IMG/VR virus record: IMGVR_UViG_3300038701_001310
Coordinates: 1-21,614 of that record
DNA length: 21,614 nt
Source: a virus
Reading direction: 5' to 3' (one strand)
Numbering within the stretch: position 1 is the first letter of the stretch; the number at the start of each line of letters is the position of its first letter. Under the pieces are notes generated by a model. The model was not told the origin of the DNA and ran no database searches. It worked only from the letters and a program-made list of their open reading frames with translations. A program made the translations under genes and the position numbers. Shown here piece after piece: positions 1 through 20,601 of this stretch.

Positions 1-435
1 AGAACTGAAGGTGTATCTTATTCAACAGGCAGATCTGTTCTGGTTGAAGATCGGGATATGTATCGGTGTTTCCAACAATTCTTGATTGATCGTGCGATGC
101 TGCCTGTGTTTCACAAATGGGTACGGATGATCAGTATGGTGTCAGACGTTATCCCGCCCAGTAGGGTTGAGGTGATAGAAGATGCCGTCAAGTATCGACC
201 AAGAGGATGGGATTGGATCGATCCTTCCAAAGAAGTCAGTGCCAACGCAGAAGCCCTTGAGACACGTCAAACCAGTTATTCGCGCGTTGCCGCAGCACGC
301 GGTTTAGACCGAGACGAACTGTTTGATGAAATAGAGGATGACTTGCAAGCAATGGCGGATCGGGGCATAGCTCCGAAGGAAAAAGTGCCAGAAATGCCCA
401 AGATGCCCGGGCTACCCGATCCAGACGAGGAATAA
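1..435 (+). CDS. Portal protein, lambda family, C-terminal part (5' end outside window)
   Basis: The reading frame is open from base 1, so only the last 144 residues are visible. The portal forms the dodecameric ring at the capsid vertex through which DNA is packaged and the tail attaches. Visible segments that match the end of lambda-type portals are GVSYSTGRS near the window edge, the region MYRCFQQFLIDRAMLPVF, and the block W.WIDPSKE..AN..AL ending in T..SRVAAARGLD, where this family usually has a ..T....A..G.D motif. The last 25 residues are acidic and proline rich, with MPKMPGLPDPDEE at the end; this MPG motif recurs in other proteins here. The gene ends four bases before the protease-capsid start, consistent with one operon. 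Portal identity is well supported by pattern and position; the role of the tail peptide is unknown. Confidence 0.85.
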   Translation, partial: RTEGVSYSTGRSVLVEDRDMYRCFQQFLIDRAMLPVFHKWVRMISMVSDVIPPSRVEVIEDAVKYRPRGWDWIDPSKEVSANAEALETRQTSYSRVAAARGLDRDELFDEIEDDLQAMADRGIAPKEKVPEMPKMPGLPDPDEE

Positions 436-439
436 GACA

Positions 440-2296
440 ATGACTAAAGCTATTCTTTCGCAAAGGAAAGATCAAAGCAACGTCAGCAGCAGGTTAGATT
501 CCTGTAAAAGCTCTGTTCGTGCCAAGCAGAACGGCAATCTTGTGGTCCCGGTTTCTTCGGAACTGGCCGTGAAGACATGGCGCGGTAATGAAATTTTGCT
601 GCACGACTCAAAAGCTGTTGACCTTGACTTCATTGCCAGTGGCAACGCGCCCCTCTTGTACATGCACAACAGGTATGAACAGATTGGCGTGATTGAAAAT
701 GCTTATCTGGAAGGAAAGCGCCTGTACGCAGAAATTCGTTTCTCGAATAATCCGCGTGCGCAAGAAATTCGTCAAGATGTTGAAGATGGGATCGTTACCA
801 ACGTTTCCATTGGTTATCGGATTGACGAATACAAAACCTCTGATGATTCCGATGATTATGAGGTAACCCGATGGACGCCACATGAAGTGTCGTTCGTTTC
901 CATTCCGGCTGATAAAACAGTCGGCGTTGGCCGTAACTTACAGGAGAACACTATGGCCCAGATGCCCGGTCTCGAAGAAGATCAGGAGACGGACGAACAG
1001 CGTTCGGAACGTCTTGAGAAAGAAATCAATGAAATCAATGCTCTTGCTACAGAGCATAACATGAGCGACGTTGCCCGCTCGTACATCAAGGGCCAGCTTG
1101 AGCGCGGCGATGAGCCAAAACTTGCTGTATTCCGGGGCATCGCACGTTCAAAGTTGCCGGAGGATACTCCTCTCAAGGCGACTGATATCGGCATGACCGA
1201 TCAAGAACAGAAGCGTTTTTCTGTTGTCTCGGTTATGCGAGCACTCGCTGACGGTGACTGGAAGGGTGCTGAGTTTGAACGTGAGGCCATGAACGCTGCC
1301 GAAGAAAGCTCGGAACGTGGCACTCAACACGGTGGTGTGTTGTTCCCTACGGACATCATGAACCGTTGGGGTGATTTTGACATTGACGGTAATTCTTATC
1401 GCACACATGCCAATTCAAATCAGATGGGAGCCGCACTTGATGGCATCCGTGCCGCGCTCGCCACTTCGGGCAACGCAAACATTCTGACAACTGATCACCT
1501 TCAGGCGCGCTTTATTGATAACTTGCGCAATGCCTCATCTGTTCTTCGGGCAGGTGTGACCATGTTGCCGGGTCTCGACAGTGATGTCGAAATTCCCGGT
1601 GGTGATCAGAACATCGCCGCCGCGTGGTTGGCTTCGGAAGATGCGAACGTTGCGGAGAGTAACCCAACCTTCCGCAAAGTCACCTTGTCTCCTAAAGATC
1701 TTGGTGCGTTCACTGACATGACCCGCCGGATGCTTCAGCAATCGACAATCGCCCTTGAGGCGTATGTTCGGATGCAGATGATTGACGCACTTCGGATTGC
1801 CATTGATTTGGCCGGACTTTACGGCACCGGAGCTAACGGTCAGCCGGAAGGTATCGCCAACACAACCGGCATTGGTAGTGTGACTTTCGATGATGCTGGT
1901 TTTACCCCATATCCTTCTCGGGATGAGATCATTGATCTGCGTACATCGATTGCCGACACAAACCGTGGCCGTGGGGTTACCCATATTGGTAACTCTGACA
2001 TGGTTGGTGCTTTGCAGAAGACGAAAGTTGATGCTGGTTCCGGCGTGTTCCTGATGGGCGACAGCGCTGACCGTCTGGTTGGTAACCCGTTCATCGAATC
2101 CAATCAGGTTGTTGACGGAGATCTCTTCACGGGCGTCTGGGTGGATCTCATGCTTGGTATGTGGGGTGGCATTGAACTTGCACGTTCTACAGAAGCCAAG
2201 TTCCTCTCTGGTGGTATTCGCTACCGGGTCATCCAAACGGTTGATTACGCGGTTTCGCGTGTCGGTTCGTTTGCTCTGGGTAACGACGGTTCTTAA
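440..2296 (+). CDS. Prohead protease fused to HK97-fold major capsid protein
   Basis: A 618-residue fusion. Residues 30-170 form a prohead protease of the U35 family: His76 in LLYMHNR and Ser123 in TNVSIGY are the likely catalytic pair, and the family's ending PHEVSFVSIPADKTVGVGR lies at 147-165. Residues 172-300 are charged and helical, like the scaffold (delta) segment that is cleaved away. From about residue 300 to the end is the HK97-type shell domain, with blocks such as VLFPTDIMNRW, ALRIAIDLAGLYGTGANGQ and PEGIANTTGI. The protease would cut the scaffold inside the prohead. A strong internal start at 953 would allow a separate 447-residue scaffold-capsid product, expected to be needed because hundreds of shell subunits are required. 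An MPGLEED motif begins the scaffold part. A terminator follows at 2320. Fusions of these two genes occur in other phages. Confidence 0.9.
   Translation: MTKAILSQRKDQSNVSSRLDSCKSSVRAKQNGNLVVPVSSELAVKTWRGNEILLHDSKAVDLDFIASGNAPLLYMHNRYEQIGVIENAYLEGKRLYAEIRFSNNPRAQEIRQDVEDGIVTNVSIGYRIDEYKTSDDSDDYEVTRWTPHEVSFVSIPADKTVGVGRNLQENTMAQMPGLEEDQETDEQRSERLEKEINEINALATEHNMSDVARSYIKGQLERGDEPKLAVFRGIARSKLPEDTPLKATDIGMTDQEQKRFSVVSVMRALADGDWKGAEFEREAMNAAEESSERGTQHGGVLFPTDIMNRWGDFDIDGNSYRTHANSNQMGAALDGIRAALATSGNANILTTDHLQARFIDNLRNASSVLRAGVTMLPGLDSDVEIPGGDQNIAAAWLASEDANVAESNPTFRKVTLSPKDLGAFTDMTRRMLQQSTIALEAYVRMQMIDALRIAIDLAGLYGTGANGQPEGIANTTGIGSVTFDDAGFTPYPSRDEIIDLRTSIADTNRGRGVTHIGNSDMVGALQKTKVDAGSGVFLMGDSADRLVGNPFIESNQVVDGDLFTGVWVDLMLGMWGGIELARSTEAKFLSGGIRYRVIQTVDYAVSRVGSFALGNDGS
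942..955 (+). promoter_or_regulatory. Internal ribosome binding site and start for capsid without protease
   Basis: AGGAG at 942-946 is followed by six bases and then an in-frame ATG at 953-955, codon 172 of the fusion. This is the ideal spacing. It sits exactly at the junction where the protease domain ends (VGVGRNLQEN) and the scaffold segment begins (MAQMPGLEED). Initiation here would give a 447-residue scaffold-capsid protein ending at 2296. The position at a domain boundary makes chance less likely, but use of the site is inferred. Confidence 0.65.
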
Positions 2297-16804: not shown

Positions 16805-16948
16805 TCAGTACCTCAAGTATGTGTAAGCCGCAGCAACGGCGAGTTGTAGGAACATAACCACCAAAACCAAAAATACCCCATTCATCGGATGACTCTTTCT
16901 CGACCGCATCCCCTTATGCAGTTGGGAAGGTTTGTACTTCTTCTTCAC
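16805..16948 (-). CDS. Small single-span membrane protein, 47 residues, GTG start
   Basis: The - strand reads GTG AAG AAG AAG TAC from 16948 to a TGA at 16805. The N-terminal part is strongly basic (MKKKYKPSQLHKGMRSRKSH) and residues 24-42 (VFLVLVVMFLQLAVAAAYT) form one hydrophobic span, ending YLRY. AGGA sits five bases before the GTG, which overlaps the preceding TAG by one base (TAGTG), a classic coupled start. The stop lies two bases before the next ATG. It fills an otherwise empty gap exactly. It resembles small phage membrane proteins of unknown role; a holin would usually be longer. Internal ATG starts at codons 14 and 22 are alternatives. Confidence 0.6.
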   Translation of the reverse strand: MKKKYKPSQLHKGMRSRKSHPMNGVFLVLVVMFLQLAVAAAYTYLRY

Positions 16949-17577
16949 TAGATTCCTGGCATCCTAGTAGACAAAGCACCCGGCATCGCGGGCTGTGACG
17001 GGGGGTCTCGATCTACGATATCGAGGCCGGGCATTATAGGTTGCAACGGAGGATCTCTATCAACCACACCAAGACCCGGCATCACGGGCGGTGAGGGGGG
17101 TGATTCTATGCCGGGCATTGTTGGCTCATCGTCACCGTGCAGTCTTCTGACAATAGCCCAAGAAAGAGCCTTGCGGATTGTGTCAGCGGTAGAGTTCAGG
17201 ATGACAGGGTACTTGGCCGTATTGTCGCCAAAACTTCCGATGATCGGACCCCTGAAGATCACTAGTCGATATTGATCCTTCATGGTTGCGGTGTATGTGG
17301 CGTTGGGGTTCGTCATAATGACGACACTGTGAACGTCACCTTCTTTTAGCACAGCATCCAGTTCACGGAATAACTCAGGATCATCGCCTTCACTGAACGG
17401 AACTTGCGAACGTCTAAGTATTTCACGAAAGACTTCGGTGACGTTATCTGCATGATAAACCAACGTCTCATCATCACGCTTATGATAACTCACGGTGAGA
17501 TGATCTCTTTCCCGATAGATAAACATCTTTGTACTGTGACGTACAAAAAACCCTTCAAGTGATTCAATCAATCGCAT
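16948..17577 (-). CDS. Unknown protein with repeated MPG tail
   Basis: A 209-residue protein. Residues 1-147 look like a compact alpha/beta domain (MFIYRERDHLTVSYHKRD, VHSVVIMTNPNATYTATM, YRLVIFRGPIIG, a final helix TIRKALSWAIVRRL). Residues 150-209 are disordered and carry five MPG motifs at 154, 166, 182, 198 and 206, with a 16-residue repeat (MPGLGVVDRDPPLQPI then MPGLDIVDRDPPSQPA), ending TRMPGI. The folded part is not recognised. It begins within the last 10 bases of the polymerase gene, so it is coupled to it and may act with it in replication. AGGAA lies nine bases upstream of the ATG. The same motif ends the ssDNA-binding protein and the portal. Confidence 0.8.
   Translation of the reverse strand: MRLIESLEGFFVRHSTKMFIYRERDHLTVSYHKRDDETLVYHADNVTEVFREILRRSQVPFSEGDDPELFRELDAVLKEGDVHSVVIMTNPNATYTATMKDQYRLVIFRGPIIGSFGDNTAKYPVILNSTADTIRKALSWAIVRRLHGDDEPTMPGIESPPSPPVMPGLGVVDRDPPLQPIMPGLDIVDRDPPSQPAMPGALSTRMPGI
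16969..17121 (-). repeat. Degenerate 16-residue repeats (48-base period) with MPG motifs
   Basis: Coding repeat at the C-terminus of the 209-residue protein. The two best units share VVDRDPP/IVDRDPP and MPGL. Codons for MPG vary between copies (cca gga, ccg ggc, ccc ggc, ccg ggt), which points to selection on the peptide rather than on DNA. Confidence 0.7.
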
Positions 17578-19463
17578 ACCAATAATTTCCTTGCTTCTTC
17601 GATGTAGTACAACCAGTTGACGTTATCCCAACGAAAATTCTCTATTTCGTTGGTGATGGTCACGGTCCAGCCCGCTTGAACGCTCATATGACGCTCCCCG
17701 GCTTCTCGTTTTTTAGGTAGTGGTGGCATAACTTTAGTCAGCGAGCTTCCGTCAGTGGACACATAATAACGTGTGGTGTTTTGTATTTGCTTATCACCAT
17801 GTATGAGTTTGCTAGTGCGAGGTATCTTTGCGGTGAGTTGGAAATCCCACGGATTTCTGTGTCTCATGATAAATTTGTCTACCGGTTCACCAGTAATATG
17901 AAAAGCCTCGGCGGCCTTTCGAGAAACCAGATTAGAATGATCTTTGTGCCACGGTAGTTCTCTAGTGTAGGGATCTTCATTGGCCGTGATGTAGGCGTAT
18001 GCACCGATTCTTTTGATTGACCCGTCATCCTTGACCGCAGCATAAGAATTAACGTCTCTGATGAACATTGATTTGTACCGTACACTCTCAAGTTCAAGAC
18101 CGGTGTAGTCCTCCCACATTTTGCATATGTGGTTCATATATTCTACGGCTTTTTTTCTGACCCTGACGGTAAGACCATCGGTATTCATTTGTATGAGTTG
18201 TATATCCGAGTACCTATTGTTCCCCTGATCATAAAGCAACCATTCGGCCAACATGCACAGAAATAGTTGCCCACTCAGGGTTATACTCATGGTGTACTGA
18301 GAATCATAGAAGATGCTGAAAGGTTGATTGCTATCACCGTACACACCGTTTAGTGCCAGTTTAAGCATGGCGTTTTCGGCAGTTTTCTTCGCGTAACCTT
18401 TTCGCATTTCGTACACTTCTTTGTAGATAGCGCAGAAATGTTCAGACAGATGAGCCGGGTAAAGGTTACCCGTGATTGCAAGGTTAGGATAATAGGACGC
18501 TACGTCCCAATCCCAAATTTCCCACTCATCATCTTCGTGCACGGCTGTTTTCTTGAGTGAGCCGTGAATACCGCCGGTTCCGAAGTGACAATCAAAACCA
18601 TCCACAGTAGCGATCAGTTTTTTGAATACACCCTTCGTTTCTACTATTTGCTGTTGTGATAGCCAAGAACGTACACGTTCAAATTCAGGATGCCGATATT
18701 TAATCTTCGGGCTGATACAGACACCAAGATTGATGGAACCTCTTATTGTTTGTTCGGGGTTCCGGTACTCATCATAACACTGAATACCGGCCTCAATCAA
18801 CTTCATCTCAAAGAACTTCTTACCGATCTTGGTGTCATTGAAGTTCAGTACATCACCCATCTTGGGATACTTTTCGGCCAACTCATCTCTAAAGTTGATC
18901 TGATCGATAGACTTCTTGTAAAAGTCTACAGTCTCCGCAACGTCCCGGCAGTTATATTTTATGACCTCGTTCATCTCATGGTCAGTGAGTAACTGGTCAG
19001 GCGGGTACGGAAGATCTTGTACCCTTTTGGATCTCATATTGATGGCAAGTTTTTTTAGACTGGTTGACTTGGCCATGTTATCAAAATGGTGGATGAGGAA
19101 CAAATCGCCCTGTGTGATTATCCTTTGCCTCGGCCAGAGGGTAAAAGCGTTTCGCTCTTGAGACTGAAAGATGGCCTGTGCGAGCGCATAGGCGTCTTCA
19201 GACCTGAACGTGCCTTGTTCTTCAAAAGCTAACAGGAGCCTTTGCACGATGGGCCAGTCAAAATGAATGTTGTTAAATCCAAAAAGTCTAGCACCCCGCT
19301 TTTCAAGTTCTCTAAGGAACCATGCTAGTTGTGCTGACTGATCTATCCTCGCCGACACTTCGAAGATCCATCGTGTGCCGGTTTCGATATGTACAAAGAC
19401 AACCGAAAACATGTTCTTGTACGTTTCGATGTCGTAGGCGTAATCTTTTGACAGATTGCTCAT
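17568..19463 (-). CDS. Family B DNA polymerase with 3'-5' exonuclease
   Basis: A 631-residue replicative polymerase. The exonuclease (1-180) has motif I YDIET (Asp11, Glu13), motif II FNNIHFD (Asp69) and motif III YNCRD (Tyr170, Asp174). The polymerase part has motif A DWDVASYYP (Asp320, Ser323, Tyr325), motif B KLALNGVYG (Lys368, Asn372, Tyr375) and motif C QMNTDG, where Asn427 replaces the usual first Asp of DTD while Asp429 is kept. It is compact for family B and shows no obvious protein-priming insertions. It should copy the phage genome together with the adjacent ssDNA-binding protein. The ATG at 19463 has AAGGG nine bases upstream. It overlaps the next gene by 10 bases. Confidence 0.88.
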   Translation of the reverse strand: MSNLSKDYAYDIETYKNMFSVVFVHIETGTRWIFEVSARIDQSAQLAWFLRELEKRGARLFGFNNIHFDWPIVQRLLLAFEEQGTFRSEDAYALAQAIFQSQERNAFTLWPRQRIITQGDLFLIHHFDNMAKSTSLKKLAINMRSKRVQDLPYPPDQLLTDHEMNEVIKYNCRDVAETVDFYKKSIDQINFRDELAEKYPKMGDVLNFNDTKIGKKFFEMKLIEAGIQCYDEYRNPEQTIRGSINLGVCISPKIKYRHPEFERVRSWLSQQQIVETKGVFKKLIATVDGFDCHFGTGGIHGSLKKTAVHEDDEWEIWDWDVASYYPNLAITGNLYPAHLSEHFCAIYKEVYEMRKGYAKKTAENAMLKLALNGVYGDSNQPFSIFYDSQYTMSITLSGQLFLCMLAEWLLYDQGNNRYSDIQLIQMNTDGLTVRVRKKAVEYMNHICKMWEDYTGLELESVRYKSMFIRDVNSYAAVKDDGSIKRIGAYAYITANEDPYTRELPWHKDHSNLVSRKAAEAFHITGEPVDKFIMRHRNPWDFQLTAKIPRTSKLIHGDKQIQNTTRYYVSTDGSSLTKVMPPLPKKREAGERHMSVQAGWTVTITNEIENFRWDNVNWLYYIEEARKLLVCD

Positions 19464-19575: not shown

Positions 19576-20601
19576 TTAAGTTCCGGGCATCCCGGGCATT
19601 GAAGGTCCACCAGCGGCACCCGGCATCCCTTGAGGTTGCCCTTGGGGTTGAACAGCACCCGGATTACCATGAAGGATCTGAGTATGTGGCTGAGCTTGTG
19701 GTTCAGTACCGGATACAGTCCCATGCTGTGCAGGCATAGACTGTACGGGTTGTGTATGGGCAGGTGCCTGATGCTGTTGGACCGGGGCACCTTGGGGGTT
19801 TCCCACAGGCATCCCTTGAGGTTGCCCTTGCGGCATAGCGCCCGGCATCCCTTGAGGTTGTCCTTGTGGCATAGCGCCCGGCATCCCTTGGTGTGAGACA
19901 GGTTGCTGCATGGCAGCTTGTCCAACAGGTTGTTGGGCACCACCGGGCATCCCCTGTTGTGCCGCAAGTGTTCCCACTGGTGTATGAGATGCACCGGGGG
20001 GTAGCACGGCCTGACGATCCGCAAAGGCATCAGAAGCCTTCTGGCCACCAGCAATGGCATCACCATAACCCAACAGACGAATGGCCACCGGGTTCATGTA
20101 GACACCGGCTGTATCATCCACGTTGCCGTTAGGTTGGCTGTTGAACTTCACTTCCATGAAGTCTCCGCGCTTGATGTCAGACAACGGAATTTCCTGATAC
20201 TCCCAATTACAAGCGCTGACCACGAAAGAAGTATTGAACTTGATGATCCAATGGCCCCTGATGTATTCAGGAGTTTCCTTCGGTTGCCCCTTGTCATCAT
20301 ATCGTTGGGCGTCACCGTCTTCGATTTTCCAAGCAAACTTATCTGCACCCAAGCCTTGGTTGATTTGTGCCATGACGGCAGGTGCGTGAGCATATCCCTG
20401 ACTGGCCATATTGAAGATAGCGTTGATCAAATCTGTCATCGCCGGGTCAGTTTTTGGCACAGCAAGTGCGTAATAGAAACGTTGCTTGTCTTCAGGGATT
20501 GGTTTGTTGTAGTAATCCTTATCTTGTTTTTCCGTAAGCGAACCGCTTACAAATCGCCCTGCGGGCGTAAACATGTTTTCCAATTTTACGGTAGCGTTCA
20601 C
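19576..20601 (-). CDS. Phage ssDNA-binding protein (DUF2815-like) with long low-complexity tail
   Basis: A 341-residue protein. Residues 1-185 form the DNA-binding domain: KLENMFTPAGRFVSGSL, RFYYALAVPKTDP, GHWIIKFNTSF, GDFMEVKFNSQPNGN and AGVYMNPVAIRLLGYGD resemble phage ssDNA-binding proteins of the DUF2815/gp2.5-like group (OB fold). Residues about 200-341 are a disordered tail rich in Gln, Pro, Gly and Met with 12-residue repeats (GMPGAMPQGQPQ) and six MPG motifs, ending SMPGMPGT. In other ssDNA-binding proteins such tails recruit partners; here the ending is not the usual acidic tip. The start is GTG at 20601 with AGGAG eight bases upstream. It lies between the nuclease/Acb2-like genes and the polymerase. 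Confidence 0.8.
   Translation of the reverse strand: MNATVKLENMFTPAGRFVSGSLTEKQDKDYYNKPIPEDKQRFYYALAVPKTDPAMTDLINAIFNMASQGYAHAPAVMAQINQGLGADKFAWKIEDGDAQRYDDKGQPKETPEYIRGHWIIKFNTSFVVSACNWEYQEIPLSDIKRGDFMEVKFNSQPNGNVDDTAGVYMNPVAIRLLGYGDAIAGGQKASDAFADRQAVLPPGASHTPVGTLAAQQGMPGGAQQPVGQAAMQQPVSHQGMPGAMPQGQPQGMPGAMPQGQPQGMPVGNPQGAPVQQHQAPAHTQPVQSMPAQHGTVSGTEPQAQPHTQILHGNPGAVQPQGQPQGMPGAAGGPSMPGMPGT
19808..19890 (-). repeat. 36-base tandem repeat in the ssDNA-binding protein tail
   Basis: Units begin at 19808, 19844 and 19880 (third partial), each starting GGCATCCCTTG on the + strand. Each adds 12 residues (GMPGAMPQGQPQ). A related single copy begins at 19622. Near identity of the units suggests recent duplication. 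Confidence 0.85.

Follow-up and report, generated by a model that had tools for sequence, protein, structure and literature searches.

How the maturation protease is dosed and brought into proheads is a question of current interest in phage assembly. In phage HK97, the protease gp4 is a separate protein that is encapsidated, and the delta domain points into the prohead. The lambda genes C/Nu3 and the herpesvirus genes UL26/UL26.5 are nested protease-scaffold genes, as is also seen in phage Mu. In Mu, an in-frame internal start with a Shine-Dalgarno sequence (SD) in the head-protease gene gives rise to a shorter product, which is C-terminal and has sequence in common with the protease protein, and the same arrangement has been proposed for the Mu-like phage PaMx73 (PMC4378225). 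In the MD8-type phages, the protease, scaffold and capsid functions are united in a single gene (PMC8508860), for which that paper reported no internal start. The published descriptions of the PHROG 617 fusions (including PMC10892653) present one propeptide or one fused gene and are silent on a second start. Protease-capsid fusion is therefore already known, as are internal starts in protease genes that give a scaffold (known in Mu and proposed in Mu-like phages); an internal start that gives a scaffold-capsid precursor within a fused gene was not found described in the open-access literature.

We analyzed a stretch of viral DNA of 21,614 nucleotides (IMG/VR record IMGVR_UViG_3300038701_001310, here called the window) and found that a frame on its plus strand, at 440-2296, runs uninterrupted for 618 codons. 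The prediction that protease and capsid occupy one frame was confirmed by Pfam, which placed both domains inside it: Peptidase_S78 at residues 68-164 (37.4 bits, gathering cut-off 21) and Phage_capsid at residues 352-615 (126 bits). The PHROG 617 profile covers residues 38-616 (E 1e-111), assigning the product to the PHROG 617 family of protease-capsid fusions. The residues H76, S123 and E149 do not vary in either of two alignments (17 and 42 sequences) and are candidate catalytic residues; together with the Pfam score, they predict that the protease domain belongs to the S78 prohead protease family. An AlphaFold2 model computed from an alignment of 42 sequences (mean pLDDT 78.8) comprises the protease at residues about 30-165 (527-934, plus strand, also supported by Pfam and the alignments), a disordered linker at residues 168-182, helices at residues 185-290 (992-1309, plus strand), a low-confidence disordered stretch at residues 311-356 (1370-1507, plus strand), within which the maturation cleavage site likely lies, and the capsid domain at residues 357-618 (1508-2293, plus strand). 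The capsid part belongs to the HK97-fold capsid proteins, as judged from its Phage_capsid domain and from its PDB matches, the best of which were phage R4C (8gta, the top match), RcGTA and HK97, and by analogy the helical domain may be likened to the HK97 delta domain. The locus thus resembles HK97 gp4/gp5 in having an S78-type protease upstream of an HK97-fold capsid protein with an N-terminal delta-like scaffold, whereas in HK97 the protease and the capsid protein are separate genes. The PHROG 617 fusions of Jilinvirus, Hapunavirus, Foxunavirus, Cronusvirus and others share its family, domain order and length.

To place the fusion among its relatives, several searches were compared. Single-sequence searches with the window protein as query brought up no relative in viral or genome contigs, so a close relative was lacking for comparison. 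Among phage records there were 53 full-length matches, all below 60% identity and each covering at least 80%, and in the 23 of them that were examined the fusion is annotated as a single capsid gene. Profile searches of viral and bacterial contigs gave over a thousand candidates, and the best 80 from each, 160 loci ranked by a two-domain query, all contain a single open frame spanning both domains. When the capsid part alone was used as the query to seek split protease and capsid genes near the family, none was found, and all 75 relatives whose upstream sequence reached far enough to judge were fused. Because the relatives are equally fused, loss of a stop codon through a sequencing error is excluded as the source of the single frame. 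Split genes turned up only in distant relatives, such as Cellulophaga phage phi39:1, in which the protease and capsid genes are separate and adjacent. The fusion therefore probably derived from such a state, and the absence of a split gene among the 75 determinable relatives indicates that it is not recent. Some homologues from Roseobacter and Synechococcus phages (L002, L012, L013, L018 and L024) carry about 150-300 extra residues N-terminal to the protease, and these fusions are 794-975 amino acids long.

The full-length start at 440 is served by an SD-like GAGG (427-430, plus strand) that lies 9 bases 5' of the ATG and overlaps the end of the portal gene; its duplex energy is -5.9 kcal/mol. 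An internal SD, AGGAG (942-946, plus strand), is followed by the spacer AACACT (947-952) and by an ATG (953-955, plus strand) encoding M172 of the fusion. The original prediction of AGGAG, six bases and ATG at the domain junction is thus exact, with M172 lying in the disordered linker. This ATG is in frame with the first one, 513 bases or 171 codons downstream, and the predicted product of 447 residues would extend over 953-2296 on the plus strand. From its translation and the structure model, this product consists of the delta-like scaffold and the capsid, and the description of the short copies as capsid-only does not apply. In having an SD and an in-frame start at the protease-scaffold boundary, conserved in relatives, the window resembles systems of the Mu I/Z and lambda C/Nu3 type. 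In those systems, however, the short product is the scaffold alone and the capsid protein is encoded by a separate gene, whereas here the frame runs through the capsid to 2296 and the predicted short product joins the scaffold to the major capsid protein.

The internal SD, at -7.4 kcal/mol, outdoes that of the full-length start and is among the strongest of the window's genes. Given the encoded residues, an SD this strong at the site has a probability of about 0.21; it is therefore unexceptional for its amino acids, and the case rests on conservation. RNA folding predicted a hairpin at 923-966 (plus strand) whose 16-base loop (936-951) contains the SD and whose stem contains the ATG, the unpaired probability of the ATG being about 0.01. 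The fold of 893-1012 (120 bases) gave a z of -2.44, and the RNA around this internal start was more structured than the gene average. This is opposite to the trend of the family, in which the RNA around the linker start is unusually open (-8.2 vs -15.7 kcal/mol, p 1e-15). The internal start had been called perfect, which is overstated for a site whose ATG is predicted to be paired, and the idea that the window's own site is optimal was rejected on this ground. Initiation at 953 may depend on ribosomes arriving from upstream and opening the hairpin, and the predicted hairpin could regulate internal initiation.

To analyze the conservation of the linker start, we used 91 non-redundant fused representatives at <70% identity and took as the reference point the conserved motif VGxGR, which ends the protease. 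An in-frame ATG was present within 60 codons after this motif in 89 of the 91 representatives, and the other two (L109 and L177) have a GTG behind AAGGAG plus six bases. All 91 thus have an in-frame start, and conservation in relatives with the same fusion, by which the original prediction itself proposed to be judged, was found. Since L109 and L177 have exchanged the ATG for GTG and kept AAGGAG, it is the capacity to start, not the methionine, that is preserved. In the fusions from the phage records first examined, a Met stands directly before the delta region in 23 of 23, and the linker start is present throughout the PHROG 617 fusions. The linker is otherwise unalignable across homologues, and the start site is retained down to about 30% identity. 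The residue after the linker Met is P, S, T, A or G in 56 of 89 representatives (p 5e-5), an enrichment of residues that favour Met removal. The cyanophage-type homologues (S-LBS1 and S-CBS1/3; L004, L012 and L013) retain the linker ATG without any SD, possibly owing to weaker SD use in cyanobacterial hosts.

To evaluate selection at the nucleotide level, the first linker ATG of each gene was taken blind to its SD, and the same amino acids recoded with each gene's own codons served as the control. The results showed that an SD of -4 kcal/mol or stronger stood at the first linker ATG in 83% of cases, compared with 48% under synonymous recoding. Mean SD strength differed from the recoded control by a z of about -8, a value that was reached in 0 of 2000 trials and that overstates independence, as all z values here do, because the homologues share a phylogeny; the excess still held at the stricter identity cuts of 50, 42 and 38% (43, 14 and 10 sequences). 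The same test on ATGs of the capsid part gave a z of +4.3, of opposite sign, indicating that SDs are avoided there. When 50-codon windows were scored for an in-frame ATG whose SD reached -6 kcal/mol, 53% of the linkers of the 91 homologues were positive, compared with about 6% for the capsid part and 2.5% for the protease part; in the other two frames of the linkers, an ATG with a strong SD was found in 4% and 0%. At -12 to -10, the K, E or Q codon has G as its third base in 46 of 58 cases (28 expected), whereas the other K, E and Q codons of the linker avoid G and end in A. The SD core is found in each of the three codon phases and is translated as KE, EE, QE, RS, RD, GA or GS.

These results bear on the possibility that only the full-length polyprotein is made, assembles in that form and cuts itself twice, first at the protease-delta boundary and then ahead of the capsid domain, the SD-like bases being a by-product of a conserved charged linker peptide, possibly a cleavage motif. 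The annotation of phage Murka treats the fusion as one propeptide (PMC10892653), and linkers often carry KE or EE before the M, whose GAG and AAG codons look like an SD. The SD is, however, stronger than recoding of the same peptides allows, the third base of the -12 codon shifts to G at that codon only, different dipeptides encode the SD in three phases, and the two homologues with GTG in place of ATG still have AAGGAG; we therefore regard a polyprotein alone as improbable. As the main driver, a conserved cleavage peptide was rejected by the recoding test, the codon third base and the variety of phases. The signals at synonymous sites are those of a putative translation start and not of a peptide motif, and, as far as sequence can tell, the internal start is very likely functional.

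A second alternative is that the site is a relic, separate genes having been joined by the loss of a stop codon with the old capsid start left unused. The separate adjacent genes of the distant phi39:1 would agree with such a history. Nevertheless, the site survives to about 30% identity in a linker that cannot otherwise be aligned, selection is seen at its synonymous positions, and 0 of the 75 determinable relatives are split, all of which makes an idle relic very hard to credit. Comparison of sequences establishes the fusion, the location of the predicted start in the linker and the selection at the nucleotide level. The proposal that one gene gives both the fusion and a shorter product is well supported by the conservation of the start and by SD strength above the synonymous-codon expectation.

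We consider it likely that two in-frame starts give a 618-residue fusion and a 447-residue delta-capsid precursor, with a minority of fusion copies carrying the protease into the prohead. Initiation at 440 would produce the protease-delta-capsid fusion, and initiation at 953, directed by the conserved SD in the flexible linker, would produce the delta-capsid precursor, from which the bulk of the shell would probably be built. By means of their delta and capsid parts, a few full-length subunits would join the short ones in the assembling shell, their N-terminal protease pointing inward; since the HK97 delta domain faces inside, a protease N-terminal to it on minority subunits would end up inside and so be carried into the prohead. 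Cleavage of both forms by the protease near residue 344 would then free the protease itself and the delta part and leave one mature capsid protein. We infer the making of both products, their ratio, their co-assembly and the cleavage site; plausibly, the fusion directs the protease to the prohead interior and the ratio of starts sets its dose. In the virion structure of R4C, a member of the family, the modelled capsid chain comprises residues 362-629 only, in 415 copies, and residue 362 is equivalent to residue 344 of the window protein. The protease and the scaffold are thus absent from the virion model, which contains the HK97 part only, and two precursors would have been invisible to virion proteomics. 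Both precursors would mature to the same protein, which would explain virion studies without two forms.

It is also conceivable, though rather unlikely, that both products are made and the capsid part of the fusion is clipped early, so that free protease enters the prohead and the internal start only raises the capsid yield. HK97 gp4 offers a precedent for a separate encapsidated protease, and the disordered linker could be cut early; against this, every determinable relative keeps the fusion, which fits a role for physical linkage. If a minority of fusion subunits does carry the protease, its dose would be set by two start sites within a single gene and tunable by silent changes. For a large family of phages, the databases would then list the capsid precursor in its long form only, and any expression or assembly study that starts from the annotated frame would attach a protease to each subunit.

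The MD8-type genes differ in that their protease is ClpP-like, with a fold unrelated to S78. We found that they too keep an SD and an ATG downstream of the protease, at a position that does not shift among relatives as far apart as about 60% identity; since the peptide around the site is itself conserved and the set is smaller, this observation is supporting, not decisive. In a Helicobacter prophage fusion, AAAGGAGG was observed ahead of the linker ATG. We lean slightly toward a general rule by which tailed phages that join protease, scaffold and capsid keep a second start after the protease, one message giving both the carrier and the bulk precursor. The S78 and the ClpP-fold proteases would represent at least two origins of such an arrangement, which would have been missed since maturation trims both products alike. 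The conserved linker start of MD8 is M220. In MD8-type genes (L269 and its relatives L325-L349), a very strong SD (AAGGAGGAG) stands before an ATG inside the ClpP-like domain of MD8 (M185) as well as before this linker start.

Two further observations were made in the window. The minus-strand frame at 17568-19463 encodes a protein of 631 amino acids that by inspection only resembles a family-B DNA polymerase (DWDVASYYPNLA); no Pfam model matched it at 1e-3. The tripeptide MPG occurs 14 times in 5 of the 20 window proteins, compared with 0.65 expected, mostly near protein ends (400-435, 956-970, 2675-2692, and 16948-17577 and 19576-20601 on the minus strand). It is found at the C-terminus of the portal protein, at the C-terminus of the protein encoded at 2381-2695 and in the tails of two minus-strand proteins, and also at residues 4-6 of the predicted internally started capsid product.
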